Positions 6,036-53,498 of a DNA stretch of 64,000 bases are shown here, one piece after another. The translations under genes were made by a program, and so were the position numbers. The stretch is from Bacillota bacterium (lineage in GTDB: Bacteria; Bacillota; Sulfobacillia; Sulfobacillales; Sulfobacillaceae), in assembly GCA_023511625.1 (NCBI GenBank), contig JAIMBD010000006.1, positions 1-64,000 of the forward strand, read 5' to 3'. Each line of letters starts with the position of its first letter. Position 1 is the stretch's first letter. Under the pieces are notes generated by a model, which ran no database searches, had not been told where the DNA came from, and saw only the letters and a list, made by a program, of their open reading frames with translations.

Positions 6036-6960
6036 GGTCGCTCCGCGTTTCTCCTAACCACAGCCACTCGTAGTGCAACGGCACCGTCCGAACGCGCTCC
6101 GCCCACGCCGGATCCTCGGCGGTGATGCCCAACACGGCCACCAGCGCCGCCTCCAAGAGGTTGGTGCCGAAGGTGCGCCCGCCCAATTGCGGCGTGGTGG
6201 TGGCGACCCACGCCACTCCCCGCGCCTGCATGGCCTTGAGGTCTTCGGCCGTGGTGGTGTTGGTGAGGATGCCCTTTCCGTCTAGCCGTTCCGGCCAAAA
6301 GCGGCGAATGAGGTGAAAGTCGCCGGCCACCACGGCGGCCTCGGCAAAATACCGCGCATAGCGGACATCGGGGGGACGGCGCTGGGCATCCCCAACCGGG
6401 TACAGCTCGGCCGCCGGTCGGGACACGTATTGCGGCAACAGCTCTCGCCCGATCTTCACCAGTTCCGCGCGGCTTTCGATAGGGTAGTCGATGCCGGCAA
6501 CAAACAGCAGGTCGCCCGCCACCACCGAATACCCAAGGCGGTAGAACGCCTCGGCCATCCCGAACCGGTCGAGGGCCGAGACCATCAACACCGGCTGGGA
6601 GGGGGTGATCCGGCCCCGGCGGTGCAAATCTTCCACCACCCACCGCTCCCAGGTGTCCTTGATCCCGCTGCCGTCGACCACCGGCGTGCGCTGCGCCTGG
6701 CGGGCCAGGTCGGCACCGTCTCGAAGTTCGTAGCGTACGCCGTCGAGGACCACCCAGCGATCGATCCCGCCCAAGCCGATCGCGTCCACCTGGCCATCCA
6801 GCTCCCGGATCCAGGCCCGGGCGCGCTCGAGGTCGCCGTCGCTGCCCCGCCGCTCCACGACCACCCGCTGGCCCAAAAGTTCCCACTCGGCGCGGTGGTC
6901 GCGGTGAGAGGAGCCGAGGCTCACTCCCACCACCCGCTTGTGCGCGCCAGGCACGGTCAC
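6025..6960 (-). CDS. Conserved protein of unknown function
   Basis: A 311-residue soluble protein beginning KRVVGVSLGSSHRDH, followed by AIGLGGIDRW and TPVVDGSGIKDTWERW. I associate this pattern with a conserved family that databases sometimes label 'quinate 5-dehydrogenase', but I see no shikimate/quinate dehydrogenase catalytic Lys-Asp pair and do not support that name. Stretches such as ILTNTTTAEDLKAM and GVAWVATTTPQLGGRTFG suggest an alpha/beta nucleotide- or sugar-binding fold. Its ATG overlaps the lysS stop by 4 bases and its end overlaps the SCP2 gene, so it is translationally coupled to both. Function unknown. Confidence 0.6.
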   Translation of the reverse strand: MTVPGAHKRVVGVSLGSSHRDHRAEWELLGQRVVVERRGSDGDLERARAWIRELDGQVDAIGLGGIDRWVVLDGVRYELRDGADLARQAQRTPVVDGSGIKDTWERWVVEDLHRRGRITPSQPVLMVSALDRFGMAEAFYRLGYSVVAGDLLFVAGIDYPIESRAELVKIGRELLPQYVSRPAAELYPVGDAQRRPPDVRYARYFAEAAVVAGDFHLIRRFWPERLDGKGILTNTTTAEDLKAMQARGVAWVATTTPQLGGRTFGTNLLEAALVAVLGITAEDPAWAERVRTVPLHYEWLWLGETRSDHDA

Positions 6961-8456: not shown

Positions 8457-8500
8457 CAACGCCGTCCTCCCGTCTCGCCCTTGGCTCGGGACCGCGCCCC

Positions 8501-9001
8501 TCACCGGATCGCGATCACCTGATACCGAATCTTGCCCGCCGGCGCGTTGACCTCGACCACGTCGCCTACCCGTACGCCCATCAGGGCCTTGCCCACCGGC
8601 GATTCGTTGGAGATCCGGTTCTTGCTGGGATCGGCCTCGGCCGCGCCGACAATATCGTACTGCTCCTCGATGTCCTCGTCCAAATCGCGCACCGTGACCC
8701 GCGACCCGATGTGCACCGTGGTGGGATCCTCCTTGTCCGAATCGACCACCCGCGCCTGCCGCAGCATCTTCTCGAGGGTCTGGATTCGCCCTTCCACGAA
8801 GGCCTGTTCATTTTTGGCGTCTTCGTATTCGGAGTTCTCGGAAATGTCCCCGAACTCCCGCGCCGTCTTGATCCGTTCGGCCACTTCCATGCGCTTGACC
8901 GTCTTCAGGTATTCGAGTTCGGCCTCCAGCTTCTTCAAACCCTCGGCCGACACCAACAGTTCGCGCTCGTTCAAACCCGATCCCTTCTTTCCCCCTGGCA
9001 T
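8501..9001 (-). CDS. greA: Transcription elongation factor GreA
   Basis: A 166-residue GreA that rescues backtracked RNA polymerase by stimulating transcript cleavage in the secondary channel. The N-terminal coiled coil carries the catalytic tip GDISENSEYEDAK with its acidic pair, and the C-terminal FKBP-like domain ends with NESPVGKALMGVRVGDVVEV. The length is close to the usual ~158. The first residues (MPGGKKGSG) are atypical, so an in-frame TTG at about residue 10 is an alternative start. The gene ends four bases into the longest possible lysS frame. Confidence 0.95.
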   Translation of the reverse strand: MPGGKKGSGLNERELLVSAEGLKKLEAELEYLKTVKRMEVAERIKTAREFGDISENSEYEDAKNEQAFVEGRIQTLEKMLRQARVVDSDKEDPTTVHIGSRVTVRDLDEDIEEQYDIVGAAEADPSKNRISNESPVGKALMGVRVGDVVEVNAPAGKIRYQVIAIR

Positions 9002-9146
9002 CGTCGCACCGGTACCGGATAGACGGCAAAAGAGTTCGACATCGGTCCCGCATCTCCCTGCTGTGCGCGACCGCGCCGCCTCTTGAGCTCCGGCGCTCTC
9101 GATCCCCCATATGAATGCGGGCCCGGTTCCATTCCCCGGAGTGCAC

Positions 9147-10148
9147 TTACTGCCAGGCCATGGCCCGACCGCGCGCGTGCCGAAGCCAGGCCGCTACCAA
9201 TTCCCGAGCCTCCGAAGCCGTCTCCAGGGCCGTGGCGAAAGCCCGAAAGCGGGCCGATCCCTCCACCCCTTTGAGGTACCATCCCAACTGCTTGCGCATC
9301 TCGCGCACCGCCACGAACTCGCCCTTGAGCTCGACCAACCGCTCGAGGTGCGCCAGCGCCATGGCCGCCCGCTCCTCGGCCGAAGGGGGCTCGAGCTCTC
9401 GGCCAGTGCGCCAGTAGTGCACGACGCGCCGGAAGATCCACGGGTCGCCGAACGACGCCCGCCCGATCATCACGGCGTCGCACCCGGTCTCCTCCATCAT
9501 GCGCGCGGCGGCTTGCGGGCCATCGACGTCCCCGTTGCCGATCACCGGCACGGCATCGCCCACGCGCGCTTTGACTTGACGGATATAGTCCCAGTTCGCC
9601 GGGCGCTGGTAGAAGTCGGCCCGGGTGCGGGCGTGAATGGCGATGGCCTGAACTCCAAGCGCCACAAAGCGTTCCGCCAACTGGGGCGCCGTGATGGACG
9701 ATGCGTCCCAGCCGGCCCGCATCTTGACCGTAACGGGAATGCGCACGGCCTTCACTACGGCCTCCACCACCGCTTCGGCCACGTCGGCCCGCGTCAACAG
9801 GGCCGACCCATCGCCGTTGGCCACCACCTTGCGCACCGGGCAGCCCATGTTAATATCCACCAGGTCTGCCCCGGCCGCCTCGGCCATTCGGGCCGCCTCG
9901 GCCATCGTTTCCGGGTCCGACCCCGCGATCTGGACGCCGACCGGCGCCTCCTCCGGGTCGAGGTCCATCATCGACGCGCTCTTGCGACTTTGATGCAGCA
10001 AGGCATTGGCATTGACCATCTCGGTGACGCACAGCCCTGCCCCTTGGCGGCGCGCAATCAGCCGATAGGCGCGGTTGGATACGCCTGCCATGGGCGCCAG
10101 CAGGACCGGCGGATCGATGGTAAGCGTCCCAATCTGCAAGGCCTCCAC
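9147..10148 (-). CDS. dusB: tRNA-dihydrouridine synthase B
   Basis: An FMN-dependent TIM-barrel enzyme that reduces uridine to dihydrouridine in tRNA. Visible motifs are PVLLAPMAGVSNRAYR near the N-terminus, DINMGCPVRKVV with the catalytic Cys, VKMRAGWD, AIAIHARTR and VIGNGDVDGP. An ATG further upstream (10196) would include the promoter -10 box, so I place the start at the GTG at 10148, with GGAG a few bases before it; a TTG at 10139 is also possible. It has its own extended -10 promoter. In Bacillus the gene also lies upstream of lysS. Confidence 0.9.
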   Translation of the reverse strand: MEALQIGTLTIDPPVLLAPMAGVSNRAYRLIARRQGAGLCVTEMVNANALLHQSRKSASMMDLDPEEAPVGVQIAGSDPETMAEAARMAEAAGADLVDINMGCPVRKVVANGDGSALLTRADVAEAVVEAVVKAVRIPVTVKMRAGWDASSITAPQLAERFVALGVQAIAIHARTRADFYQRPANWDYIRQVKARVGDAVPVIGNGDVDGPQAAARMMEETGCDAVMIGRASFGDPWIFRRVVHYWRTGRELEPPSAEERAAMALAHLERLVELKGEFVAVREMRKQLGWYLKGVEGSARFRAFATALETASEARELVAAWLRHARGRAMAWQ

Positions 10149-40085: not shown

Positions 40086-42290
40086 TCAGGCCGACGGGCG
40101 GCGCAAGTAGTCGACCAGTCCCTCGAGCGACAACAGTGGCGCCACCGCCTCGCCTTGGACCGCGGCACACCCCATCTCGGCCAAGGACTCCAGGCGGTCG
40201 GCCGCGTCCACCCCTTCGGCCGCCGCTGGCACTCCCAGCCTGCGGGCGAACTCGATCGCCACCGCCACCAGCGCCGCGTCTCGCGGATCTTCCCCCATTC
40301 CCTGAATCCACTCGGGCGCGATCTTGACCATGGCCACGGGGAGGTGGCGCAGAGCCCAAAGCGAGGCGGCTTCGGAACCAAATCCGTCGAGGGCGACGGC
40401 GATGCCGTCCCCCGCGATGCGGGCAATGTGCTCGCGGGCCTGTAGAAAGTCCCGAACGGCAGCGGTCTCGGTCATTTCCACCATCAGCCCGCCGGCAGGG
40501 GCCCGCTCCATCCCCTCCCACAGCTCGCGCAGGTCCTCCGGGAAGCGGGGGTCCAGAAAATAGTGCGCCCCGATGTTGACGTGCAGGCGCAACGGCCCGA
40601 CGGCCTCCTCCAGGTGCGCCTGGGCCGCCAAGGCCAACCGCAGGCTGGTCTGCCCCAAAGGGCGCGCCAACCCCGGGGCGTCGAGTAGGTCCTCGGAAAG
40701 CCTTTTTCCCTCGGGGTCGGCCGCGAGCGCCTCCACGCCCACCACGGCCCCCAACGCCCCCGGCGGCAAAAGAGCCCGGAGCGGCCGGAAGACGAGCTGG
40801 ATCTGGTCGTGCGCAATCCAGTCGGCCACTTGGTTGCGCAGCTGGCTTTCCTGCTGCAGGCGGTCCTCCATGGCCGGGCGGTAGAGGTAGTATTGGTCGC
40901 GCCCCTGGTCCTTGGCGGCATAAAGAGCGAGGTCGGCGTGGCGCAAAAGCGCCGTGGGATCGGCGGGGTCGGCGGGAAAATAGGTCAAGCCGAGGCTCGC
41001 GGAGATGTACACCGCCTCCTGGTCCAACCAAAACGGTGCCCGCAACCCCTGCAGCACCCGGCGCGCCACCCCTTCCAGTTCCTCTCGGCGGTTTAAGTCC
41101 ACCCACAACAGGGCGAACTCATCGCCTCCCATGCGGCCCACCCGGTCAGCGGTGCGAATCAGGCTGACGATCCGAGCCCCCACCTGCTGCAGCAACTTGT
41201 CGCCGGCCGAGTGGCCCAAGGTGTCATTCACGGCTTTGAATCCGTCGAGGTCGAGCATCCCCACGCCGACTCCAGTGCCCCGGCGGCGCGCTTGGTCGCA
41301 GGCCTGGCGCAGCTGTTCGAAAAACAGGCGCCGGTTGGCGAGCCCCGTCAAAGGATCGTACAGGGCCAGCTGTTCCAGCTCGCGGTCCCGCTCGTAGGCC
41401 TCAAGCCCCATGCCCAGACTCAAGGCAATGTGCTCCAAGAGGCGGAGCAACGGTTCGGAGAAAAACTGCCCATCGTGGGCCCGCACCCCCATCACGGCCA
41501 CCACCTCGCCAAATCGGGCGATGGGGATGGCCGCCACGGCCCGGATGCCGTGGCGCCGGTACTGGTCCCACAAGAAGTGGAGGGAAGGTTCGCGTTCGAC
41601 GTCGAGACAGAGCTGGGTCTTGCCCGTGCGCACGGCCCAAGCCGCCGGGCTCTCGCCGTCCAGATCCAGGTTCAAGTCTTCGTACAGCGCCGACAACCCC
41701 GGGCGGGGCGCCGGAAAGAGCCCTTCCAAGCGGCGCCGTTCGCCGTTGACCCACCCGATCCACACCAGGAGCGCGCCGACCCGCCGTTCCAGGATGGTGG
41801 CCGCCTCGCGCAACAACGACACCGGCGGGCGAGCGGGATGGCGCGCCACGAGCTCATTCACCTCGGCCAAGGCGGCGTAGTAATCCCGTAGGCGCTCGGC
41901 TTCGCGCTGGGCCCGCTCGCGGTCGGTCATGGCCGAGACGATGGCCAGGATCCCGATGGCGCGACCTTTTAAGTCCTTGAGCGGGATCTTGAAGGTGTGA
42001 AAGGTGTGTTCCCCGATGGCGTCAACGGTTTCGACGGGATGGCCGCGGTCGAGCGCGCGCCGGTCCGACGCCTCGCATGCGGCACAGGCCTCCGCCGGCA
42101 AAAGATCGCGGTCGGTCTTCTCTTCCCACGGTCCGCCCGCAAGCCCAAACCAATCGAGGGCTTGCGGGTTGGCGAACCGCCACCGCCCTTTTGCATCCTT
42201 GAGCAGGACCCCATACGGCAATCCCGCCATCTGGCGCAAAAGGAAGATCCAGGCATCAAGAAGATCCGGCGGTGGTCGCCGGTTGCGCAT
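40086..42290 (-). CDS. PAS-GAF-GGDEF-EAL signalling protein
   Basis: 734 residues. A PAS domain (~20-120) and a GAF domain (~155-295) precede a diguanylate cyclase with intact MGGDEF (387-392) and an inhibitory RxxD site at R379-D382. The EAL half (~490-730) keeps EAL (520-522) but the metal-binding DDFGTG reads DGFGSE (635-640) and the KID motif reads KIA (656-658), so c-di-GMP hydrolysis is unlikely. The protein should make c-di-GMP, with the EAL part perhaps sensing GTP or c-di-GMP. There is no membrane segment, so the sensed signal is cytosolic. The PAS has CAAC near residues 69-72, which could bind metal or heme, but this is speculative. Confidence 0.9.
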   Translation of the reverse strand: MRNRRPPPDLLDAWIFLLRQMAGLPYGVLLKDAKGRWRFANPQALDWFGLAGGPWEEKTDRDLLPAEACAACEASDRRALDRGHPVETVDAIGEHTFHTFKIPLKDLKGRAIGILAIVSAMTDRERAQREAERLRDYYAALAEVNELVARHPARPPVSLLREAATILERRVGALLVWIGWVNGERRRLEGLFPAPRPGLSALYEDLNLDLDGESPAAWAVRTGKTQLCLDVEREPSLHFLWDQYRRHGIRAVAAIPIARFGEVVAVMGVRAHDGQFFSEPLLRLLEHIALSLGMGLEAYERDRELEQLALYDPLTGLANRRLFFEQLRQACDQARRRGTGVGVGMLDLDGFKAVNDTLGHSAGDKLLQQVGARIVSLIRTADRVGRMGGDEFALLWVDLNRREELEGVARRVLQGLRAPFWLDQEAVYISASLGLTYFPADPADPTALLRHADLALYAAKDQGRDQYYLYRPAMEDRLQQESQLRNQVADWIAHDQIQLVFRPLRALLPPGALGAVVGVEALAADPEGKRLSEDLLDAPGLARPLGQTSLRLALAAQAHLEEAVGPLRLHVNIGAHYFLDPRFPEDLRELWEGMERAPAGGLMVEMTETAAVRDFLQAREHIARIAGDGIAVALDGFGSEAASLWALRHLPVAMVKIAPEWIQGMGEDPRDAALVAVAIEFARRLGVPAAAEGVDAADRLESLAEMGCAAVQGEAVAPLLSLEGLVDYLRRPSA

Positions 42291-42372
42291 GGCAAAAGCG
42301 CCCTCCTTGCCTGAAAACCCCGTCCCTGGGGGGGCTACGGCCGGATTTTCCTATGGGCAAAATTCCGCCGCG

Positions 42373-42401
42373 ATTTTACCACGGCAGCCCGGTGCTGACC
42401 A
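42373..42401 (-). promoter_or_regulatory. Promoter of the GGDEF-EAL gene
   Basis: On the minus strand TGGTCA (42401-42396) and TAAAAT (42378-42373) are 17 bases apart, and TGG precedes the -10 as an extension. The transcript would start near 42366, 75 bases before the ATG. Confidence 0.5.
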
Positions 42402-42771
42402 TCACTTTTTTGCGCGAAAGACCCCGCCCAAGCCTGCAGGGAGTCCCTGCCCGAGACGCCACGGCCCCGGCTTCTTTCAGCGCCCTCGGATGCCACGCCC
42501 GAAGGCCCACGGCAACCATACCGTCCCGAACCATCCCCACCACCCGGGCGCGCCTTCTCCGCGATCTGTGGCCGCCTTGGCCAATCCCCTGACCCCGACG
42601 TCCCCGCATAGACCTCACGTCGAGCGCTTCGCCGGACGAGGCACCCACCCGCGAACCCGGACCCATTGGAGGACAGCAGGATTGTCGTCCCCGGTGGCGA
42701 AATCGGTGGGAAAGGCCGCGGCGAAGTCGAAGATTCTCGAGCAAGCCATTGTGGTAAGGGAGGCATCACCG
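42402..42771. other. Gap between the GGDEF-EAL gene and the EVE-McrB gene
   Basis: 370 bases with no separate gene. The open frame of the EVE-McrB protein runs through it, but composition and lack of conserved motifs argue against coding before about 42680. An in-frame TTG at 42682 with GGAGG nine bases upstream is a possible longer start, adding a short basic segment (KSVGKAAAKSK). I see no confident plus-strand promoter. Confidence 0.4.
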
Positions 42772-45105
42772 GTGAGCGCCCAGCGCCCCGCAGTCGATTG
42801 GTACATCGTGGTTGGGGAGAAGGCCCACCCCAATTTCCTGCGAGCCCTTCAGGCCGAGGTGTGGGGGGCCAAGGAGGCCCGCCTTTTCCAAGATGCCCAG
42901 TTCGGCTTCATCCAGCCCGGCGATCGCGTGCACTTTGTCATCACGCCGGAATGGGCCGGCCCAAGGCCCGCACCTGAAGGATTCCCGCGCATCCTGTTGG
43001 AGCACTACCAGGTGCGCGGCCGCGAAATCGAGGTCGAGGTCACAAGCCCGGTATTCCGGGCCGAGGACCAGGTGTGGCCCGATGACCTTTATCCCTGGCG
43101 ATTCCGATTCCGCAAGACCGCCGAACGCGAGCGGCAGTTTGTGCCCGGGCTCGTCCCCGACGCGGTGCGCGACGCGGTACGCATCTCCCATTTGCAACAG
43201 GGCCGCGCTCAGCCCGCAGTCGCCGGCGCCGCCCCGCCGCCCGACACCGCCCGAGCGCCCACTGCGGAACAAGTCGAGACATCTACGGCGCCCTCACCGG
43301 CGGACTTTTCCCTCCGCGACACCTTGCAGCGGATTTTGACCGCGTATCCCGCGGCGCGCCGCGAGCCGTTTTCCGGACACCCGCTGGCGGCATTCATCCG
43401 TCAAGTCCCGCAAGGTCTTCGCCTGCTGTTGCCGAGAGAGTACCGGGCGTACGCCATCGAGGCATCGGCGGGGCAAGGCAATTGGGCCGGCGTCCCCTGG
43501 ATCGCCATTCGCAACCCGCAGCTGGCTCCCTCCGTGCAGTCTGGTCCCTACGTCGTCTACCTGTTCGCCGAGGGCATGGATCAGGTTTACCTGTGCCTCT
43601 CCCAAGGCGTCACCGACCTTATCGCCCGCCTAAAGCGCGCGGCCGGCCGCGCCCAATTGGCGCGGCAGGCTCAAACCTGGCGCAGCCGATTGGCCCCGCA
43701 ATGGCCGCAAATCCACTGGGACGACGGCATGCATCTCGGAAACGGGAATCTCGCTCAAGACTATAAGGCGGCCACGATGGGGTATCTCGCCTACCGTCGC
43801 GACCAATTGCCGAAAGAAGACGTTTTGCGCGAGGACCTCCTCCGCATGCTGCAGGCCTACCGGTCACTCGGCGACCAGTGGAAAGACGGGCCTGCTCCCT
43901 ATCCCGTTGCCCCCGAAGATCCCCTCCCCTCAGAGATGGGGACGCCAACCCACGCCCGGGAATCCGAATCGGAACCGCCGCGGCCGGCCCCGCGCCAACC
44001 GTTCCAGTGGGAGGCGGCCATGGAGCAAATCCGCGCCATCGGCTACGCCGTCACGCCAGACATGCTGGCCAACATCCTGATCTCCCTCCTGGTCCGTCCT
44101 TTCGTCATCCTCTCAGGCCGTTCGGGCACCGGGAAAACCAGTCTGGCTCGGATTCTGGCCCACCTTTTCGGGTGGGATCCGCACATCGTGGCCGTCAATC
44201 CGGCCTGGGCCGACCCCACCGACCTCTTTGGCTACCTCAGTCCTCTGACCCAACAGCGCGTGGCCGGACCGTTGGAGCCCTTGCTGCGGTCTTCGGCCCC
44301 TACCGCCTTGCTTTGCCTCGATGAGTTCAACGTGGCCAAGGTCGAACACTACTTCTCCGACTTCATCAGCGCCATGGACCACGACTTGCCGCCGCGCTTT
44401 TGGGGTCCCTTGGAGACCTTGACCCGGCTCAACGCCCGTCCCGAGGCATCGGCCGAGCCCTTGCGCCTGCCGCCGGACCTTCTCGTCATCGCCACCATGA
44501 ACTTCGACGACTCCGTGCAATCGCTCACGCCGCGGATGTTGGACCGCGCCCACGTCATCGAGATGGACCTCGAGGGCCCGGATACCTTGGTGGTTGCCGA
44601 AAGCCTCCGCTGGACCGAGGTAGAGCGCTGGACCCCCATGACCTGGCCGCCCCTCGCGCGGATCGGGGGCGACGTCGCCATCGACCCGGACCTCCGCCGA
44701 GCCGTCGCCGAGCGCCTGCGGGCCGCCTTTTTGGCCCTGGCCGGCTCGCGGGGGCAGTTCGGCCACCGGCCGGCTCAAGAAATCCTGCGCTACTGCGCCT
44801 ACGGCACCCAAATCCCCGAAGTCTTCGGGCAAGACCCCGATCGCCTCCTCGACCACCTCTTTGACCGCCAACTGGTCCAACGCCTATTGCCCAAATTTCA
44901 CGGCACCGGCGCTGCGCGCGACATCAACGCGCTTCTGCGCCTGCTCCCGCTTCTGGACGGCGAGGAGTCCCCGCCGGACCCACTGCAGGAGGCCCCTGCC
45001 CTCTTACAAAGGGCGCGCGAGGCGGGACGGTTTCCCCGCACCGCCGCCAAGGTCGAGCAGCTGGTGCGCACGTTTCAAGAGGACGGCTATGCCTCCTATT
45101 GGTGA
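42772..45105 (+). CDS. McrB-like protein: EVE + MrcB_N (DUF3578) + AAA+ GTPase
   Basis: 777 residues, the motor and sensor of a modification-dependent restriction system. Residues ~8-115 resemble an EVE/PUA-like base-reading domain (DWYIVVGEKAH at the start, VWPDDLYPWRFRF at the end). Residues ~180-295 match MrcB_N/DUF3578 (GNWAGVPWIAI, GPYVVYLF, VYLCLSQG). The AAA+ part has Walker A GRSGTGKTS (449-457), Walker B ALLCLDEFN (512-520) and the McrB signature TMNFDD (575-580) with Arg592 nearby. McrB proteins use GTP and drive a McrC nuclease. The GTG has AAGGGAGG eight bases upstream. It overlaps the partner gene by 17 bases. No methyltransferase is adjacent, as expected for a type IV system. 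Confidence 0.85.
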   Translation: MSAQRPAVDWYIVVGEKAHPNFLRALQAEVWGAKEARLFQDAQFGFIQPGDRVHFVITPEWAGPRPAPEGFPRILLEHYQVRGREIEVEVTSPVFRAEDQVWPDDLYPWRFRFRKTAERERQFVPGLVPDAVRDAVRISHLQQGRAQPAVAGAAPPPDTARAPTAEQVETSTAPSPADFSLRDTLQRILTAYPAARREPFSGHPLAAFIRQVPQGLRLLLPREYRAYAIEASAGQGNWAGVPWIAIRNPQLAPSVQSGPYVVYLFAEGMDQVYLCLSQGVTDLIARLKRAAGRAQLARQAQTWRSRLAPQWPQIHWDDGMHLGNGNLAQDYKAATMGYLAYRRDQLPKEDVLREDLLRMLQAYRSLGDQWKDGPAPYPVAPEDPLPSEMGTPTHARESESEPPRPAPRQPFQWEAAMEQIRAIGYAVTPDMLANILISLLVRPFVILSGRSGTGKTSLARILAHLFGWDPHIVAVNPAWADPTDLFGYLSPLTQQRVAGPLEPLLRSSAPTALLCLDEFNVAKVEHYFSDFISAMDHDLPPRFWGPLETLTRLNARPEASAEPLRLPPDLLVIATMNFDDSVQSLTPRMLDRAHVIEMDLEGPDTLVVAESLRWTEVERWTPMTWPPLARIGGDVAIDPDLRRAVAERLRAAFLALAGSRGQFGHRPAQEILRYCAYGTQIPEVFGQDPDRLLDHLFDRQLVQRLLPKFHGTGAARDINALLRLLPLLDGEESPPDPLQEAPALLQRAREAGRFPRTAAKVEQLVRTFQEDGYASYW

Positions 45106-46741
45106 GCTCGCGCGCGTGGAGGCGGGCGAGACGGCGGTCATCCTCGTCGGCCCAACCGCCCACGATCGCCTCACGTGGCCGACCGACCCGCCCTCGGGTC
45201 CGGTCCTGCGCACCATCGGCCGCGGCCTAGCCGTCATCTGCGCCCCCCGTTTTCCGCTCTTCGACGACGTGGAATACCGGTTGCGGATCATCGGGCCGGC
45301 CCCGGTGACCCTGCACCTGTCCGGCCAGCCGCTCGAGGTCAGTTGGAGCCAGCATCGGGGCACGGCCGTGGGCGACGCCGTCCTCCGCTTTCGGCAGCTC
45401 GGCTGGGTCGAGTTCACCTGGAGCGCCCCGCCCTGCGGCTTTGCCATCGCCGTCAGCTCGCGCAAGCTAGACTACGAAGCCGACTACCTCGCCATGGTCC
45501 ACGACCTCGAGCGCCAGATCCGGGGCCTCTCCGCGCGCCTGGTGAGCCCGGTGCTGCAGGAAAGCCGCTCGTTGCCGGAGCCCTCCGACCTCGACGCCCA
45601 CTGGCTGGCCGTGCTCCGCTCGGTGCGCGCCGAGTTGCTGCGCGACCTTCAAGCCGCCTGGTACACGCTGCCGCCGCGCCTCGCCAAGCAGGAAAGCCAG
45701 CGCGACCTCGACCGCGCCCGCCGTATCGGGTACCGCGAAGTCGCGCGGCTTTGGGCCACGGGCCGCCCACGAGTCTACTCGAGCCGTCCCACCTGGACCC
45801 TCCTCACTCCCGAACGCCGTTACCTCCTCGACCTCGCGCAGCATCTCCACCGGCGCCTTCAGGGCATCGCTCGGCGCCACCCCGGGCTTTCCCTGCCCGA
45901 AATCGCGGCCTTTGGGCAAGAGCTCGAGCGCGTGATGCACCGCTGGACGTGGGAAGCCGCAGACGCATGGACCCCCGGCCGCTACCCCATCCCGCCGGCC
46001 TCGCCCCTGGCGCAAGCCCACCCGGCCCTGCGTCGGGTCATCCAGTGGCACCGCCGGTTAAATCAGGGGCTGTTGCCAGAGGCGGGGCGCTGGCTTTTGG
46101 GCATGAAAGACGTCAGCCTCCTCTACGAGTACTGGTGCTACCTGACCATCGTACGCCTCGTGGTCGAAGAGTCGCAGGGAACGCTGCAGGTACCGCCGAA
46201 GGCCCGGCCCGACCCGGTGGGATTGGTGCTCGGCAGCGGGGAGGAATCGGCGGCACAGGTGTGCACGGCAAGCGGCGAGCTCGTCCGAATCGTCTTCCGG
46301 AGGCGTTACCACCAACTGCCCACGGTCTCCCAGGAACCGGATCACGTGGTCTATCTCCGCGCCGGGCGCCGTCTGCTCGTCTTCGACGCCAAGTACCGCT
46401 TGTGCCAAGATCCGAAGGAACTCGAGGCCTACGGCGAAGGGCTCTGGATCCCTCCCGTCGAGACCCTCAATCAGATGCACCAATACCGCGACGCGATCCG
46501 CGACCGCGGCCCAAACCCCCGACGGTTGGTGCACATTGCCGTAGTCTTGTTCCCCCTCCCGGCCCCCCAACACGCCGAATGGAGCCGTCACCGCTTCTGC
46601 CGCAGCATCGAGGCGGTGGGCGTCGGAGCCCTGCCGGCGCTGCCGGGTCGGGTGGAGGGGCTGCGCAAGCTCATCCGCCGCCACCTCGACCACGCCTCGT
46701 CAACACCGCCGGCGTCAGCCACTCCCCGGCCCCCTTGGTGA
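45089..46741 (+). CDS. McrC-like partner: DUF2357 with PD-(D/E)xK nuclease
   Basis: 550 residues. The N-terminal part (~1-300) is beta-rich then helical, as in DUF2357 proteins that pair with McrB-type AAA+ ATPases. The C-terminal part carries a PD-(D/E)xK nuclease: PDHVVYLR (Pro417-Asp418), LLVFDAKYRL (Asp433, Lys435) and the trailing helix NQMHQYRDAIR. All core residues are present, so it should cut DNA. The ATG at 45089 with AGAGG ahead lies inside the end of the McrB-like gene, so translation is coupled and stoichiometry probably fixed. Named by motif and neighbour; classical McrC is shorter. Confidence 0.82.
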   Translation: MPPIGELARVEAGETAVILVGPTAHDRLTWPTDPPSGPVLRTIGRGLAVICAPRFPLFDDVEYRLRIIGPAPVTLHLSGQPLEVSWSQHRGTAVGDAVLRFRQLGWVEFTWSAPPCGFAIAVSSRKLDYEADYLAMVHDLERQIRGLSARLVSPVLQESRSLPEPSDLDAHWLAVLRSVRAELLRDLQAAWYTLPPRLAKQESQRDLDRARRIGYREVARLWATGRPRVYSSRPTWTLLTPERRYLLDLAQHLHRRLQGIARRHPGLSLPEIAAFGQELERVMHRWTWEAADAWTPGRYPIPPASPLAQAHPALRRVIQWHRRLNQGLLPEAGRWLLGMKDVSLLYEYWCYLTIVRLVVEESQGTLQVPPKARPDPVGLVLGSGEESAAQVCTASGELVRIVFRRRYHQLPTVSQEPDHVVYLRAGRRLLVFDAKYRLCQDPKELEAYGEGLWIPPVETLNQMHQYRDAIRDRGPNPRRLVHIAVVLFPLPAPQHAEWSRHRFCRSIEAVGVGALPALPGRVEGLRKLIRRHLDHASSTPPASATPRPPW

Positions 46742-46779
46742 GCGCACTCCTGGAGGCCCTAAGACTCCCCAAAGGCTCA

Positions 46780-46807
46780 GGGGGCCAACCGCCCACCGCT
46801 GGCCCCC
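46780..46807. terminator. Hairpin between convergent McrC-like and TauE genes
   Basis: A perfect 8-bp stem, GGGGGCCA and TGGCCCCC, with a 12-base loop between the two convergent genes. Neither side has a long T run, so this is a weak or Rho-assisted terminator at best. Confidence 0.35.
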
Positions 46808-46850
46808 GCGCCGGCTCGGCCCTTTGTCCCGCCTTCACCCCGAATTCCCC

Positions 46851-47657
46851 TCACCACATCGTCACCCCACTGATTACCACCAGGCCAGAGAGGGCCAGGT
46901 GCAGAGGCCGCTTGGGGACGTACGCCATCAGGCGGCTTCCGATCCAGACGCCGGGCACCGATCCCAAGGCAAGTTGCGCCGCCAGGGCAAGATCGGCGGT
47001 ACCGGCCACAACGTGCGCGAGGCCGGCGGCGGTCGTCACCGCAAGACCGTACGCCATGTCGATCCCGACCAGCTTCCGCGGATCCAGGCGAGCGGTCCCG
47101 AGCAGGACCGGAGTGAGAAGCGAGCCGGCCCCGACCGAGGTCAGCCCCACCAAGAGTCCGACGGCCGCCCCAACCAGGACCCATCGCCATTGCCACCGAC
47201 CGCATCCGCCGCTCCGGGGGGCCTCGGAGGCCGCACTCCCTTCGGACGCCGCCTCGGCGTGCTCCGCTTGCCGGCGGACGCCAAGCCGCCGCCGGACCCA
47301 TCGACTGCCTGCACTGCCGAGTCCGGCCACCACCAGCGTGGCCCCGAGGAGGGAACGCAGGAGATGGGCGGCATCGTGCCCCAGCAAGCCGCCGACCACG
47401 CTGCCTGCCACAGCCATCGGCACGCCTCCGGCCGCGAGCACCCCGGCCCACCGCCAATCGACCGTGCCCTGACGCCCATGGATCCACGTCCCCACGGCTT
47501 TGGTCCCGACGTTGTAGGCCAAGTCGGTACCGATGGCCATCGGCACGGGAATGCCAAGAACCCAAAGAAGTGGCGTAAGAAGGCTTCCGCCTCCCATGCC
47601 GGTCAACCCCACCAGCAAGCCCACGGCAAATCCAGCGGCGCTGATGACGGGATCCAC
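46851..47657 (-). CDS. TauE/SafE (TSUP) family permease
   Basis: 268 residues with eight or so membrane segments in two repeats: GLLVGLTGMGGGSLLTPLL near the start and GLLVGLTSVGAGSLLTPVLL in the middle, the duplicated TSUP signature. The family exports sulfite, sulfoacetate or similar anions. A hydrophilic loop with EHAEAASEGSAASEAP separates the repeats. The start is the GTG at 47657, after AGGAGGCGAGGGA; 88 upstream in-frame residues belong to no gene. It stands alone, next to an IS110 relic. Confidence 0.88.
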   Translation of the reverse strand: MDPVISAAGFAVGLLVGLTGMGGGSLLTPLLWVLGIPVPMAIGTDLAYNVGTKAVGTWIHGRQGTVDWRWAGVLAAGGVPMAVAGSVVGGLLGHDAAHLLRSLLGATLVVAGLGSAGSRWVRRRLGVRRQAEHAEAASEGSAASEAPRSGGCGRWQWRWVLVGAAVGLLVGLTSVGAGSLLTPVLLGTARLDPRKLVGIDMAYGLAVTTAAGLAHVVAGTADLALAAQLALGSVPGVWIGSRLMAYVPKRPLHLALSGLVVISGVTMW

Positions 47658-47659
47658 TC

Positions 47660-47880
47660 CCTCGCCTCCTATCTCATCTCTTTCAATGGTTTGTAGAGGA
47701 CTGTCCGGACCTGGGGGATCCCAGGGACATTCCCGTCGGCCTCCCTCCTGTCTGCCTCGGCTTCCGCGCTGTGGAGGACCGCTGCCCGCGCCGGACAGGC
47801 CGAGCTCCGGCGCCCCCCGTGCGCGCCCGCGCGTGTAAGAGGGCGCGGCGGACCCCCTCTGCGGAACCAACGCGCGGACC
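47660..47880. other. Non-coding stretch beside TauE/SafE
   Basis: About 220 bases upstream of the permease gene and before the transposase relic. It should contain the permease promoter, but I see no clear -10/-35 pair. No gene is recognisable. Confidence 0.3.
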
Positions 47881-48480
47881 GCCCTTAGCAGTGACGCCGT
47901 CCGTAGCAGTGGCGAAGCCACCGGCGTCGGGGCCTGGCACCTGGCTTGGTGGCTGAGCCAGGTCTTTGCTCCGCTCCACCCCCGGCGCGTCTTCCTCTTC
48001 CCCCCATGGATGGTGCGGCGCTACAGCGCGAGCTTCCCAAGGAAGCGGGCAAAAACCGACTCCGAAGACCCTTGGCTCCTCGCCGCAGTCCTCAGTCGCG
48101 AAGGATGGTGGCGACGGCCCTTCCCGGTCGCGGAGCGCACGATCGCCTTGCAGCGCTTGCCGCATCATCGCCAGCATCTGGACCGCCAACGGACGCGCCT
48201 CAAGCCCTCTGCCGCCGGTTCTGGGTTTCTGAAAGCGAACGGCGTGGTCTTATCCCCACCGTGGTCTTGCCCCTGGGGGGCCCCTGTCACGGGGTCCTTG
48301 AGGCCTTCCGGCAACTGCACAGCGGCGCAGGCGGCTTGGAGGCCTCGACGACTGCCGGTCGCACCCGTCGGCCGTGCCGGTCATCGCGGCCCGGATGCCG
48401 AAAACCTCCCGCTTGCGCATTGTACGCCGGAGTCAAGCCCAGACGGCCCCGGTATCCGGATGGCAACTCTTTCACTTTTT
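47881..48480 (+). pseudogene. IS110-family transposase relic
   Basis: Three separated pieces match the IS110/IS1111 transposase pattern in order. First, GEATGVGAWHLAWWL (family: GLEATGxYWxxL) at ~47911. Second, RRVFLFPPWMVRRY then KTDSEDPWLLAAVL (~48052-48093; family VxLVNPxxVKxx then aKTDxxDAxxLA), followed by a LPHHRQHLDRQRTRLK helix. Third, in a different frame, LYAGVKPRRPR (~48418; family YAGLxPRxxxSG). The N-terminal DEDD start and the C-terminal Ser-containing domain are missing, and the frame changes between pieces two and three, so the gene is dead. No terminal repeats are visible, as expected for IS110. Confidence 0.65.
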
Positions 48481-48547
48481 CAATGGATGTCATTGGTGTA
48501 CTGAACAATAGCCGTAGGGGTAGATACCGACCGGGCATTCAAAGAGC

Positions 48548-49067
48548 CAGCCTGTGCAAATTCCCCCCGGTGGGCGCGGACGCGCCTGCACGCGCCATGG
48601 GGATTTGCCTGGGTGTAGGGTCTAACTTTATTTGGCCGGAAAAAGAGGACGGTGTCTCACACCGTCAGTCCTGAGAGGACGAGAGACACCGCCCTGGCTC
48701 CGAGGGCGTCGCCGAAGTGCCAGGGCGATGTCAGGTAGACAGGGGATGGCAAATTGCCCCTATTCCGTTTGTCGGCGCGGCGTTGGCTGTGCTTCCGCGA
48801 GGAGCGTAGAGCGTCCACCTGATGGCGAGCGCCCAACGGCTGACCCTCGGCGCGGGGGACGCGGACCGAGAGGGCACCGGCGGATATAGCAGCTGCGGAG
48901 GCCCGGATGCGGGCCGACGCCCTGGCAGAGGCTGACCCCCGCCGTTGAGAGCAAACCAAGCCCTCGTGGCAGTCACCGTCACCTACGCCACGACGCCTTC
49001 AAGCCATCCCTAAAACCGCAGCGCCATGCAAACGGCGACGCCACCTCGCAAGCGAGGTGGCGTTTTT
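48548..49067 (+). ncRNA. Hairpin-rich plus-strand region ending in a terminator; candidate ncRNA
   Basis: 520 bases without a credible gene but with dense secondary structure. GCAAATTCCCC (48556-48566) faces GGGGATTTGC (48599-48608). GACGGTGT-CTC-ACACCGTC (48648-48666) overlaps an alternative stem GGTGTCTC/GAGACACC (48651-48658 and 48683-48690) that encloses GTCCT-GAG-AGGAC. CCCTGGC (48692-48698) pairs with GCCAGGG (48719-48725), and GCCCG-GATG-CGGGC lies near 48900. The run ends in the strong terminator at 49038. The mutually exclusive 5' stems and a terminator serving no plus-strand gene suggest a transcribed RNA. I matched no known family. A TTGCCT/TTATTT pair near 48606-48634 is a weak promoter candidate. 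Confidence 0.35.
49038..49067 (+). terminator. Intrinsic terminator facing the plus strand
   Basis: A perfect 11-bp stem, ACGCCACCTCG and CGAGGTGGCGT, with loop CAAG, followed by TTTTT. The T run serves plus-strand transcription; read on the minus strand (for prkA) there is no T tract. The only upstream plus-strand sequence is the structured region and the IS110 relic. Confidence 0.75.
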
Positions 49068-49070
49068 GGA

Positions 49071-50972
49071 TTACTCGCGCTGCAAGAGGCTTCCCGCGTA
49101 ATCGAGGAGGGCCGCCGCGCAGTGCTCGCAGTAGCCGTCTTCCTTCAACCGATCCTTGACGGCACGCAGCTTTTCCTCTTGGTCTTTGTCGGGCGTCTTG
49201 GTCGAGGTGGTGGTGCGGACCAGGTTGCGCACGTCGGCAAACAGCCGCCGCTCGATCCCTTCCTGCAGCCGCGGATGCGAATCCCACCGAAAGGGGCGCC
49301 CCTGCCGGGCGGCCGAACCAGCCTTGAGCAGGATCTCTTCCCGGAAGGCGCGGGCGGCCCCTTCGCTGACCCCGATCTGCTCTTCGATCTGGCGCAGGAA
49401 GGCCACATCGGGCTCCCGCGGCTCGCCGGTGATGGGGTCGACCACTTTGGTCTTTTGGATATCGGCCTCGGCGTGTTGCAAGTAGTTTTCGAACAGCGTC
49501 TGGGCCGCTTGGTCAAAAGCGTGGACAAAGGCTTTCATCACCGTCTTCTTGACGGTTTTATCGTACTCGCCGCGCACCAAGGCGATGTAGTCGACCAGTT
49601 TCTGCTGGTCTTCGCGGGTGTGGTGGCTCAAAAACCGGCCCGTCTCGGCAAAGGTCTTGGCCGCCCGCAAGTAGTCGATGGGGTTGATGCAAGGGCGCGC
49701 AGTCTGACCCATGGCGTGGGTCAAGACGTTCATGGCGTCGCGCGGAGACAGGCCCGTCAACCCTTCGCGCGGGTCCTCGCGCTTTAACTGCTGGATCTGG
49801 TGGTCGCTGTACTCTTTGATCCGGTCCCCGTTGTAGAGCTTGGCCTTGTCGAGCAGCGTCAAGCTGGCGTCCTTGGGTTTGGACAGGCGGGAGAGCACCG
49901 AGAGCCACGCCGCCGTCTCGAGGACGTGCGGCGCGATGTGGGTGTCGTGCAACAGGCCTTCGGACAGCATCTTGCGGTAGATGGCCACTTCGTCGTCGAC
50001 CTTCAACGCGTAGGGTAACTGGACCACGTAGACCCGGTTTTTCATGGCCTCGTTTTCCGGGTTGGCGATGAACTTCTCGTACTCGTGCAGGTTGCTGTGG
50101 GCAATCACTGTTTCATCGGCGTAGATCAAGGCATAGCGCCCGGTCTTGATGTTCTGCTCCTGCGCCAACGTCAAAAGCAGGGCCATGAAGTCCCGCGGCT
50201 GTTTGAGCCATTCTTGCTCCTCCATCAGCCCGCGGTTGGCCACGTTGAACTCGCCGTCGAAACGAAAGGCGCGGGGGTCGGACTCCGACCCGTACTCGGC
50301 GATCTTCGAGAAGTCCAGTGACCCCACCAATAGGGCCGTGTCCAGGTCTTTGGGGTCCCCCGGCGTAAACGTGCCGATGCCGACGCGGTCGCGCTCGGAG
50401 AAGATCACCCGCTCCACCCGAAACTGCGTCCAGTCCTGCCCGCTTTCGCGCCAGCGCCACTGGCAGAGCGGGCACAGGTCGCCTTCGATCACCACTCCGA
50501 GCTCGCGCGCCACCTCCGGCCGAAGCTCGTGGGGAATGAGGTGAAGCGGCTCTTCGTGCATCGGGCATCCTTTGATCCCGTAAAGGGCCCCGGCGTCGGT
50601 GCGGCTGTACAGCTCCAGCCCGCGCTTGAGGTGGATCAGGAGGGTACTCTTGCCGGTCCCGGGCGGCCCGATCAGGAGCAGCACCCGTTTGCGCACGTCC
50701 ATGCGCGCCGCCGCAGCCCGGAAGTACTCCATGATGTCCCGAATCTGCGGCGCCAGGCTGAACAGCTTGCCGTCGAAGAACCGATACTCGGGCCCTTCGT
50801 CGGTCTCCCGCACCCCGGCTTCCATGATCATGTCGTAGATGCGAGCGTGGGAAAGGCGCGCCACCTTGGGGTTCTGGCGCACGATCTCGAGGTACTCCTC
50901 GAAGCTGCCTTCCCACTGCAAGCGCTGTGCCTGTTCGCGATACTGGGTCAACCGCTCCGTGATCTCGCTCAT
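49071..50972 (-). CDS. prkA: PrkA serine protein kinase / AAA+ protein
   Basis: 633 residues, the standard PrkA/YeaG length. The N-terminal AAA+ domain has Walker A GPPGTGKST (~residue 102) and FVNARI-type family stretches (IYADETVIAHSNLHEYEKFI); the C-terminal part is the PrkA kinase-like domain with YNGDRIKEYSDHQI and a CEHCAAALLDYA ending. In Bacillus PrkA acts in sporulation, with protease or kinase activity reported; in enterobacteria YeaG works with YeaH. Last gene of yhbH-spoVR-prkA. ATG with GGAAGGAGGAGGAGC before it. Confidence 0.95.
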   Translation of the reverse strand: MSEITERLTQYREQAQRLQWEGSFEEYLEIVRQNPKVARLSHARIYDMIMEAGVRETDEGPEYRFFDGKLFSLAPQIRDIMEYFRAAAARMDVRKRVLLLIGPPGTGKSTLLIHLKRGLELYSRTDAGALYGIKGCPMHEEPLHLIPHELRPEVARELGVVIEGDLCPLCQWRWRESGQDWTQFRVERVIFSERDRVGIGTFTPGDPKDLDTALLVGSLDFSKIAEYGSESDPRAFRFDGEFNVANRGLMEEQEWLKQPRDFMALLLTLAQEQNIKTGRYALIYADETVIAHSNLHEYEKFIANPENEAMKNRVYVVQLPYALKVDDEVAIYRKMLSEGLLHDTHIAPHVLETAAWLSVLSRLSKPKDASLTLLDKAKLYNGDRIKEYSDHQIQQLKREDPREGLTGLSPRDAMNVLTHAMGQTARPCINPIDYLRAAKTFAETGRFLSHHTREDQQKLVDYIALVRGEYDKTVKKTVMKAFVHAFDQAAQTLFENYLQHAEADIQKTKVVDPITGEPREPDVAFLRQIEEQIGVSEGAARAFREEILLKAGSAARQGRPFRWDSHPRLQEGIERRLFADVRNLVRTTTSTKTPDKDQEEKLRAVKDRLKEDGYCEHCAAALLDYAGSLLQRE

Positions 50973-50999
50973 GCTCCTCCTCCTTCCCCCTCCGGCCCC

Positions 51000-52334
51000 C
51001 TATCCCCGTCGGCGCGGCTCGACCCGATAGGGCTTGGCGTTTCCGTCGTACAACACCACGCCACCCCCCCACAGGTCTCGAATAGCCTCCAGCGTCAACT
51101 GGGTCCACTCCGGGTCCAGGAGGCTATCGTCGGGGGTGTGGCGCAGTTCCAACACGCCGCTCGGGGTGACGTCGACCACCTGGATCTCAGGGGGACCTGC
51201 CGCCAAGGCATTGGCCAGGGCGCTGCGCAACGCCTCCACCTCGGTCTCCTCGTACACGGCATCCCAGGTCGGCAAGGGTCCCCGCGGCGTGCGCACCTCG
51301 CCGGGAACCCACCGGTACCGGTACAGCTCGAGCCGGCGCATCCGCTCCTGGTCCAGGTAGTTGCGGACCAACCCGGCGTCGGTCTCCTCCATCCAGATGG
51401 CACGGGCGGCCTTAAACCCGTATTCCTCGACCAGGCTTTCGGCAAACTGCCATCCGAACCAATACGGATTCAGGCGCAGGGGATCCGGCGTGGCCACCTG
51501 GGCGTGGACTCGGGAGACCTCGATGGCCTCCCCGGAACTAAGCTCCATAAGCTCGAGGAGGTGGTGATGACAATAGGTGGCCCAGCCTTCGTGCAAGATC
51601 TTGACCCGGCGCTTGGGAGCATGGTAGAGGCCCTCCAGGCGCACCACCTCTAAAATGTCCCGTTCCCACGGCTGCAGGATTGGCGACTCCCGCGCCAGGA
51701 AGCCTAACAGGTCAGGCGTCGGCAGCGCATACCGCGGCACCCGCCGGCGAGGCGGCGCCGCCTCCGCGCCCCACAAGTCCACGTACGGGCTTGGCGCCTG
51801 GGGGCGCGGCTGGGGTTCCGGGCGCGGCGTGATGGCCGACACCTGATCCTGAATGGACAAGGCGCGGTCCAGCACCGCTTCCACAGCATCGGCGCCGTAT
51901 TCCTGCGCGTACTGGGCAAACCGCTCGCGGCTGGCCGCCAGGGTATGGTGAAATTGCTTGGGCCCGTCCTTGAGCAAGAGGTGGTTCTTGAAAACGTCGG
52001 CGTGCCCGAGGACATGGGCCATGACCAACTTTTGAGCGGCGACGGTGTTGGAGTCCAACAGGTAGGCCACGGCGGGATCGGTGTCGATCACCATCTCGTA
52101 CAGCCGTCCCTGGCCGCTGTCCATCCGGCGCTTCATCCGCCAGTAATCGCGGCCGTAAATCCAGTGGCTGTAATGGCCCGGCATCCCGTACGCCGCAAGC
52201 TCGTAGATGGCGTGTGCCGGCACGATCTCGAAGTCCACCGGCACCGGGTCGAGGCCGAACGCCACCGCCGCGTCCCACAACCGGTCCAAGAACCGTTCCA
52301 GCTCGTCTTTTACCGATGACGCCACCTGCGACAT
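51000..52334 (-). CDS. spoVR: SpoVR family protein
   Basis: 444 residues matching SpoVR/YcgB, needed for proper spore cortex formation in B. subtilis and for stress survival in enterobacteria. Family stretches include YELAAYGMPGHYSHWIYGRD, RLYEMVIDTDPAVAYLLDSN and MAHVLGHADVFKNH, and later EGWATYCHHHLLELM. His- and Glu-rich helices suggest metal binding. Middle gene of the operon, 28 bases before prkA and 25 after yhbH. ATG with AGGGGGTGTGCC upstream. Confidence 0.95.
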   Translation of the reverse strand: MSQVASSVKDELERFLDRLWDAAVAFGLDPVPVDFEIVPAHAIYELAAYGMPGHYSHWIYGRDYWRMKRRMDSGQGRLYEMVIDTDPAVAYLLDSNTVAAQKLVMAHVLGHADVFKNHLLLKDGPKQFHHTLAASRERFAQYAQEYGADAVEAVLDRALSIQDQVSAITPRPEPQPRPQAPSPYVDLWGAEAAPPRRRVPRYALPTPDLLGFLARESPILQPWERDILEVVRLEGLYHAPKRRVKILHEGWATYCHHHLLELMELSSGEAIEVSRVHAQVATPDPLRLNPYWFGWQFAESLVEEYGFKAARAIWMEETDAGLVRNYLDQERMRRLELYRYRWVPGEVRTPRGPLPTWDAVYEETEVEALRSALANALAAGPPEIQVVDVTPSGVLELRHTPDDSLLDPEWTQLTLEAIRDLWGGGVVLYDGNAKPYRVEPRRRG

Positions 52335-52358
52335 GGCACACCCCCTGGCGAAAACCGC

Positions 52359-53498
52359 CTACGCCGTCGCCTCTTCTTGCAGCAACATCTTGATGGCCTG
52401 CAGTACGTCGCCCCGCTTGGTCAACAACACATGGCGGTAGGGAGGCTGGGGCAACTCGGCCAAGAGGTGGCTCAGCCGCGAGGGGCTGTGCAGGAAGTAG
52501 TTGGGGGGCTGCAGTTCCACCAGCCCAAACCACCGCACCGAGCCGCACAGCGCCCGCGCCGCCTCCACCGCCGAAGGTCCGTCGGCCACATCGCCGTCCG
52601 TGAAGTGAAACACGAACGTGTTCCACTGCCCGGCCGGGTGGTGAACCTGCATGTACTGGTAGATCGCCTGGTACGCAGGCGCGGCCAGGGTCCCCCCTCC
52701 CTCGGACAATGCGAAGAACTGGGTCTCGTCAGTCTTCTGCGCGCCCACATCGTGCACCCAGAACTCCACTGCCACCGTCTGGTACTGCTGGCGCAGCCAC
52801 GTCACGATCCAGAAGGTCAGCACCCGGCTCAGGTACTTGCGTTCGCCGCCCATGGACCCGCTGATGTCGCGCAAGAGGTAGATGGCCGCCTGGGTGACCG
52901 GCTCCGGCTCCTCGCGGGCGGCGCGAAAGCGCAGGTCGTCCGGCATGAAGGTCAAGGGCATCCCCTGGGCCAAACTGCGGGCCAGCGCCTCTTTGAGGGT
53001 CGCCCGCCGGGCCAGAGTGGGCAGCGTGCCGTGCCGGCGCCGGCTGTTCCACACCCGGCGGGGGCGCACCAGATCCGCCACTTCCCGGTCCTGCAGATTG
53101 GGCAGCTGCAGGTCCTCGAAGACCATGGCGATAGCCGTCTGAATGTCCAACTCCACCTCGATCTCGTGCTCCCCCGGCTGGTCGCCCGGCTGCCGATCGC
53201 CCGACCCCGACCCCGGGCCCCCGCGGGGAACGCGGGCGATGATGTCTCCTGGCTGACCCGGCCCTTGGCCCACGCCACCCTCTGGCTGGGAGGGCAAGCG
53301 CGGTCGGAACCGCGGCAATTCCAGCACCTTGACCGGGACCCGAACCTTTTGGGTCTGCCCGTCAATCAGCGGGGTCTCAGCCACCACCACCGGCAACTTT
53401 TGGCGAATCGCTTCCCTAAGCCGGTCCAGGTGGCGGGCTTGGTCTAAGGACCCCCGTCCGGCCAAGTCCCAGTGTCCTTCCGATACGCTGCCCGGCAT
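52359..53498 (-). CDS. yhbH: YhbH/YeaH family (DUF444) protein with VWA domain
   Basis: 379 residues. DUF444 proteins carry a von Willebrand A domain; the MIDAS is visible as LLRDISGSMGGERKYLSR. An N-terminal disordered, basic stretch (RVPRGGPGSGSGDRQPGDQ) is usual in YhbH. FALSEGGGTLAAPAYQAIYQ and FHFTDGDVADGP are conserved late motifs. The protein is the third partner of PrkA and SpoVR in sporulation or stress. ATG preceded by GAAAGGGGGATCGCC. First gene of the operon. Confidence 0.94.
   Translation of the reverse strand: MPGSVSEGHWDLAGRGSLDQARHLDRLREAIRQKLPVVVAETPLIDGQTQKVRVPVKVLELPRFRPRLPSQPEGGVGQGPGQPGDIIARVPRGGPGSGSGDRQPGDQPGEHEIEVELDIQTAIAMVFEDLQLPNLQDREVADLVRPRRVWNSRRRHGTLPTLARRATLKEALARSLAQGMPLTFMPDDLRFRAAREEPEPVTQAAIYLLRDISGSMGGERKYLSRVLTFWIVTWLRQQYQTVAVEFWVHDVGAQKTDETQFFALSEGGGTLAAPAYQAIYQYMQVHHPAGQWNTFVFHFTDGDVADGPSAVEAARALCGSVRWFGLVELQPPNYFLHSPSRLSHLLAELPQPPYRHVLLTKRGDVLQAIKMLLQEEATA

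Follow-up and report, generated by a model that had tools for sequence, protein, structure and literature searches.

McrBC systems and a two-gene relative in the Sulfobacillaceae

The McrBC system of E. coli K-12 (EcoKMcrBC) has an MrcB_N reader and an AAA+ motor on McrB, a partner protein (McrC) that joins DUF2357 to a PD-(D/E)xK nuclease, the gene order mcrB-mcrC, and no methylase. McrBC of Thermococcus gammatolerans has a single, EVE/YTH-like reader at the N-terminus of McrB, and both systems carry the NxxD form of the motor signature. In a separate McrB branch NxxD is replaced by NxD, and the next residue is usually E or D; the themes described for it are RNA, in the CoCoNuTs, and methylase-associated operons, and as of 2024 no member had been characterised (PMC11090510). 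We describe here an operon of genes P0001 and P0002 in a 64,000-nucleotide stretch of a Sulfobacillaceae genome (Bacillota; assembly GCA_023511625.1, contig JAIMBD010000006.1, positions 1 to 64,000), hereafter termed the window. It is a real two-gene McrBC-type defence operon, which probably cuts invading DNA bearing chemically modified bases. The McrBC group is already known; what sets this member apart is a sensor with two different readers, not the usual one, on the NxD branch.

42756..42763, + strand: Shine-Dalgarno-like AAGGGAGG, recognised from sequence, 8 nucleotides before the GTG start codon of P0001
42772..45105, + strand: mcrB-like gene P0001, 777 amino acids; an open reading frame with an EVE/YTH-like reader, an MrcB_N reader and an NxD-type AAA+ motor
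45089..46741, + strand: mcrC-like gene P0002, 550 amino acids; ATG start, DUF2357 and PDDEXK_7

An earlier, sequence-only reading had proposed a two-gene McrBC-like system at this position, with the start of the second gene overlapping the first. Both open reading frames and their Pfam domains were recovered, the overlap measures 17 nucleotides, and the DUF2357 and PD-(D/E)xK nuclease partner lies in the same operon as the McrB-type AAA+ domain. Full-length alignment of P0001 identified homologues of the same architecture in 8 other Sulfobacillus-family genomes, at 43-50% identity, and a P0002-like gene follows the P0001 homologues wherever their contig reaches far enough; the domain matches are therefore not due to chance. 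The nearest PADLOC candidate to P0001 is PDC-M26A (2.8e-27), of a candidate system, PDC-M26, that is defined by sequence and has no described mechanism. Homologues of P0002 match PDC-M26B weakly, and P0002 itself has no match. The sequence-only reading is thus partly supported, being right in outline and corrected below as to branch, an extra domain, and the identity of one reader.

The AAA+ motor

43999..44571, + strand: McrB-type AAA+ domain, about residues 410-600 (AAA_5 6.6e-10 for residues 445-592; motor alignments)
44116..44139, + strand: Walker A GRSGTGKT, residues 449-456 (motor alignments)
44320..44331, + strand: Walker B D517 E518, with N520 (alignment)
44500..44511, + strand: signature N577-F-D579-D580, the NxD variant followed by D (signature comparison, motor tree)

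Walker A, Walker B and an Nx(x)D signature are all present in P0001, and the alignments show motor residues K455, T456, D517, E518, N520, N577, D579 and D580 to be intact. Most of the collected relatives have NMDE, NVDE, NIDE or NFDD as their signature, and the NxxD group among the collected proteins is comprised of E. coli McrB and two others. These three are set apart from every other protein (support 99/98) when 37 motors are placed in a maximum-likelihood tree, where the NFDD proteins also cluster together (98/95). Judged by motif form and by its position in the motor tree, the MNFDD signature is of the NxD type, and the P0001 motor belongs to the NxD branch, not to the E. coli-like NxxD group; an Ig-like domain at the N-terminus of P0002, assigned with moderate confidence, is a third feature of the branch. 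The earlier call of a McrB-type AAA+ GTPase with MNFDD holds for the motor and the motif, although the motif is the NxD variant and not classic NxxD.

A second NxD-type McrB-like gene, with an NLDE signature, is present in the source genome (L044, G000:C7:62000-80000, at 6641-9791 on the minus strand). The gene after it encodes 508 amino acids with a sub-threshold PDDEXK_7 match, and a relative of L044, L045, is found in another member of the Sulfobacillus family.

Two readers at the N-terminus of P0001

42772..43221, + strand: EVE/YTH-like (PUA superfamily) domain, residues 1-150 (AlphaFold2; fold searches)
43330..43869, + strand: MrcB_N (ADAM/DUF3578) reader, residues 187-366 (Pfam PF12102, E=6e-47)

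The AlphaFold2 model of residues 1-150, built from an 11-sequence alignment, has a predicted local distance difference test score (pLDDT) of 94.1 and a predicted template modelling score of 0.89. UPF0310-type proteins are ranked highest for it by Foldseek and VIA-align, with Z 10.6 for MJECL36 (2p5d) and Z 10.0 for PH1033 (1wmm; Foldseek E=1.2e-5). The YTH readers of N6-methyladenosine come next (YTHDF2, Z 9.4); the N-terminal domain of T. gammatolerans McrB (TgMcrB; 6p0f) reaches Z 8.9 and VcaM4I, the N-terminal part of which is an EVE domain, Z 8.4. Foldseek E-values for these EVE/YTH-type matches, all to solved readers, run from 1e-5 to 3e-3. Over 143 residues, the domain also shares 30% identity with a protein of a Vibrio phage that has an HNH nuclease domain at its end. 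The model, the fold matches and the phage fusion together lead us to call residues 1-150 an EVE/YTH-like reader of the PUA superfamily.

Sequence profiles were less informative. The Pfam EVE family (PF01878) has no match above cut-off in P0001, in 10 homologues, or elsewhere in the source genome, and Pfam, NCBIfam and PADLOC recognise no EVE in residues 1-150. A profile search of PDB sequences returned MJECL36 only (E=0.55). Comparison by hhalign with seven Pfam-EVE proteins of relatives, which are Thy28-like or of other EVE subfamilies and not UPF0310, was not significant, the alignments being small. A profile of the first domain, run over 398 genomes of the phylum, found it in the Sulfobacillus family only, plus two weak matches, one of them EVE-McrB-like and the other a Pfam-EVE protein, and no relative was confirmed in the viral contigs searched. 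The EVE-like reader of the sequence-only reading therefore stands as a PUA-superfamily fold of EVE/YTH-like type; Pfam does not call it EVE, and the tests do not separate EVE from YTH.

The phage protein is an observation in its own right. Gene XLL20968.1 of Vibrio phage 10N.286.55.A5_PE003 (L060 3001-3822), located near an integrase, joins an EVE-like domain of the P0001 type to an HNH nuclease and is a candidate phage-carried modification-dependent endonuclease. The VcaM4I-type EVE-HNH endonucleases share the EVE-like reader with P0001 and differ in having the HNH nuclease in the same polypeptide and no motor.

YTH-like and EVE domains are, according to Bell et al. 2020 (PMC7641849), mostly hard to separate; since the Pfam and fold tests do not separate them here either, N6-methyladenine (6mA) may be a ligand of the first domain besides 5-methylcytosine (5mC). 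The domain might even be a YTH-type 6mA reader as in TgMcrB, in which case the target would be 6mA DNA, alone or with 5mC, and YTHDF2 and TgMcrB do rank beside the UPF0310 proteins in the fold searches. The best Z and E-values, however, belong to 1wmm and 2p5d, the fusion that came out of the sequence comparison is EVE-HNH-like, and the host itself has what is probably, from its DPPF motif, a 6mA methylase (L055 1225-2289, G000:C33, on another contig); no second N6_N4 DNA methylase was found in the source genome. We regard a 6mA reader as unlikely.

The MrcB_N domain that the sequence-only reading had placed in the first protein is recovered by Pfam. In a sequence alignment, W49, Y64, L68 and Y117 of E. 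coli McrB correspond to identical residues W243, Y260, L264 and Y331 of P0001. We take W49 and Y117 to be pocket-lining, as are the other two. Y64 and L68 of E. coli McrB touch the methyl group (PMC3874153), and on this alignment MrcB_N of P0001 retains the methylcytosine pocket.

A single reader is the usual arrangement. In the EVE-McrB fusions (Bell et al. 2020, PMC7641849), an EVE-superfamily domain lies N-terminal to an McrB-like motor; this is the commonest EVE defence fusion, and additional domains are often present. P0001 differs in having MrcB_N as a further reader; in E. coli, MrcB_N takes the place of EVE. No EVE plus MrcB_N tandem protein is described in the passages and papers retrieved, but one may have been seen before, since the EVE-McrB fusions often carry further domains.

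The partner protein P0002

45122..45463, + strand: Ig-like N-terminal beta-sandwich, about residues 12-125 (AlphaFold2 model; VIA matches Z 6-7.5; moderate confidence)
45434..45880, + strand: DUF2357 (McrC N-terminal domain), residues 116-264 (PF09823 6.7e-8)
46121..46558, + strand: PDDEXK_7 nuclease domain, residues 345-490 (PF04411 6.6e-22)
46385..46393, + strand: predicted catalytic D433-x-K435, preceded by D418 (all three the same across 16 sequences)

The DUF2357 and PD-(D/E)xK partner foreseen by the sequence-only reading is borne out by both Pfam matches and by D418, D433 and K435, which are unchanged in 16/16 aligned sequences; the nuclease is thus predicted to be intact. The AlphaFold2 model has a mean pLDDT of 74.5 and E. 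coli McrC is its first-ranked Foldseek match (4.2e-5), but the root-mean-square deviation of the full-length matches is large, and for this reason we base McrC identity on Pfam and motifs, with the Foldseek rank as support. For the arginine/lysine finger of McrC (K157 in E. coli), the sequence alignment pointed to A293, an unreliable assignment that was dropped.

A feature not in the earlier reading is the predicted Ig-like N-terminal domain. McrC proteins of the NxD clade, CoCoNuT and non-CoCoNuT, are reported with such a domain, in agreement with the placement of P0001 in the motor tree. McrC of E. coli is without one and is much shorter, just as its McrB is without the EVE/YTH-like domain.

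The NxD branch and the Ig-like domain on McrC are shared with the CoCoNuTs, and YTH domains are among the best fold matches of the first domain, so that RNA-directed abortive infection of CoCoNuT type, the EVE/YTH-like domain serving as sensor of modified RNA, has to be weighed. We searched P0001, P0002 and their neighbours with Pfam, though with no dedicated coiled-coil predictor, and found neither cold-shock domain nor coiled coil, no separate CnuA, no HEPN or helicase gene and no extra nuclease. P0001 has no space for a long coiled coil, being filled by known domains. Unlike the CoCoNuTs, the operon combines an intact McrC nuclease with a DNA reader, since MrcB_N reads DNA in E. coli. CoCoNuT membership was rejected, no defining domain having been found by Pfam, and the RNA-directed mechanism seems to us quite improbable. 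The intact PD-(D/E)xK nuclease and the 5mC pocket of MrcB_N would favour DNA over RNA as the target, and the "DNA or RNA" of the sequence-only reading is too wide.

Proposed mechanism

The operon is, in our judgement, likely to be an NxD-branch McrBC that restricts DNA in a modification-dependent (Type IV) manner and recognises modified cytosine. The mechanism is proposed by analogy with McrBC (PMC3874153, PMC7680126), from which family base flipping, ring assembly, translocation, cleavage and target are extrapolated, as is the base that each reader would bind. P0001 would scan DNA with its EVE/YTH-like and MrcB_N domains, and MrcB_N would flip a modified cytosine (5mC, 5-hydroxymethylcytosine or N4-methylcytosine) into its pocket. 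P0001 would then form a nucleotide-driven AAA+ ring on which P0002 docks via DUF2357, stimulating hydrolysis, and the P0002 nuclease would cut the DNA when translocating complexes run into each other or come to a halt. As to the target, phage or plasmid DNA with modified cytosine is the most economical reading.

With two readers, P0001 could instead be a coincidence detector that requires, or is strongly favoured by, the presence of two different marks on one DNA, for example 6mA or another base bound by the EVE/YTH-like domain and 5mC by MrcB_N. This we think rather unlikely. If true, singly methylated host DNA would be spared, and swaps of reader pairs would shift the range of doubly marked genomes open to cleavage.

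Several observations weigh against a Type IV system specific for modified cytosine. At the wedge position of MrcB_N, where E. coli McrB has Tyr41, P0001 has Gln235 (Gln in 9/10 and Arg in 1/10 of the EVE plus MrcB_N proteins); both Y41A and Y41Q weaken binding by E. coli McrB (PMC3874153), so that sequence context or binding strength of the P0001 domain may differ from that of E. coli. The guanine-stacking residue of TgMcrB is Trp223 (PMC7680126), and Phe209 of E. coli McrB, at the same position, aligns with Ser457 in P0001; with the stacking aromatic replaced, GTP specificity is uncertain and GTP use putative. Cytosine methylases occur in 3/9 genomes that carry EVE plus MrcB_N and in about 6/28 others, and a genome of the same genus with its own mcrBC (G001) has three PF00145 matches. 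Finally, some relatives on the NxD branch have cytosine methylases as neighbours and may act on unmethylated DNA; the nearest plasmid relatives share their operon with a DNA methylase and, in several cases, with Vsr.

The last point bears on a LlaJI-like polarity, in which the N-terminus would read unmodified sequence while a cytosine methylase encoded elsewhere protects the host. LlaJI, itself McrBC-like, cleaves DNA that is unmethylated (PMC1459862), and the plasmid relatives in methylase operons are the nearest ones. As the sequence-only reading had stated, no methylase gene lies beside the P0001/P0002 operon, and PF00145 and PF02384 have no match in the source genome (97% complete assembly), although a methylase gene might lie in the part that is not assembled. 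Both N-terminal domains, moreover, come from modified-base-reader families. The missing methylase and the two readers lead us to prefer Type IV restriction of modified DNA, and we hold a LlaJI-like polarity to be highly doubtful; membership among LlaJI-like restriction-modification systems was rejected, there being no methylase gene in the operon. The LlaJI-like operons share the DUF2357-nuclease partner with P0002, and the methylase-associated NxD operons ("yellow group", Bell et al. 2024, PMC11090510) share motor clade and NxD motif as well; P0001/P0002 differs from both in having no methylase and two modified-base readers. The absence of cytosine methylases from the source genome fits modification-dependent restriction but is weak evidence, because carriers show no depletion of cytosine methylases; the idea that carriers avoid 5mC methylases was dropped on the same counts.

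Operons of cytosine methylase, McrB-like, DUF2357 and Vsr genes, likely LlaJI-like systems, were seen on plasmids of Caballeronia, Rhizobium and Deinococcus (L063, L065 and L066).

Genomic location

42252..49070, no strand assigned: accessory insertion with mcrBC, TauE gene and IS110 relic (comparison with same-genus genome G001)
46851-47921, - strand: TauE gene (PF01925 4e-44)
about 47977-48204: IS110 relic (PF01548 1e-7)
49071-53498: PrkA, SpoVR, DUF444 block, adjoining the insertion and conserved in the same-genus genome

The gene order tilS-like, asnB, GGDEF-EAL, PrkA, SpoVR is kept in G001, where GGDEF-EAL and PrkA are about 250 bp apart versus 6.8 kb in the window. G001 carries its own mcrBC at another site with unrelated flanks. 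Because the GGDEF-EAL/PrkA site is empty in G001 and its mcrBC sits elsewhere, the system is accessory and relocates. The difference reflects either gain in the window or loss in G001; no convincing direct repeats were found at the insertion borders. An accessory stretch with an IS110 relic had been suggested from the sequence, and the comparison now defines its limits. The interval between asnB and GGDEF-EAL is a second variable spot in this gene block, at about 2.2 kb in the same-genus genome (L082 10637-12806) versus about 250 bp in the window.

The adjoining IS110 relic, and the recruitment of the McrB relative PcdA to cell division in Staphylococcus (PMC10602043), raise the idea of a domesticated or decaying McrBC relic that has lost restriction. 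Both frames are open, however, and have ribosome-binding sites, every catalytic motif is kept at 43-50% identity to homologues, and the patchy, relocated distribution is typical of defence genes. A relic is very improbable indeed.

Exchange of readers and significance

A close homologue of the P0001 motor was found in 18/34 sampled Sulfobacillus-family genomes, and the block N-terminal to it varies. EVE plus MrcB_N is found in P0001 and 9 homologues, and Mrr_N is the reader in four others (L035, L036, L040, L041). In L039 (7524-9701), DUF3427 replaces MrcB_N behind an EVE-like domain of the P0001 type. The reader regions of L034 (880-1820) and L043 (8187-8840) match no Pfam family above cut-off, that of L034 being weakly RE_AspBHI_N-like at E=0.1, below the Pfam cut-off. 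Two Bacilli relatives (L024, L025) have MrcB_N and no EVE-like domain. Four changes along the motor tree are needed to account for the five reader states. In the McrC tree, too, the Mrr_N systems cluster (98/100), and P0002 pairs with the same-genus protein (97/94, on long branches). Motor and nuclease are thus kept while readers change among homologues, as expected if the N-terminus sets specificity.

P0001/P0002 is a compact two-gene NxD system that lacks a methylase and pairs an intact DNA nuclease with two readers of modified bases. It would be a convenient test of whether the NxD branch restricts modified DNA and uses GTP, and of whether tandem readers act by OR or by AND logic. The Sulfobacillus-family homologues extend it into a natural domain-swap series, in which one motor-nuclease chassis is fitted with different reader blocks.

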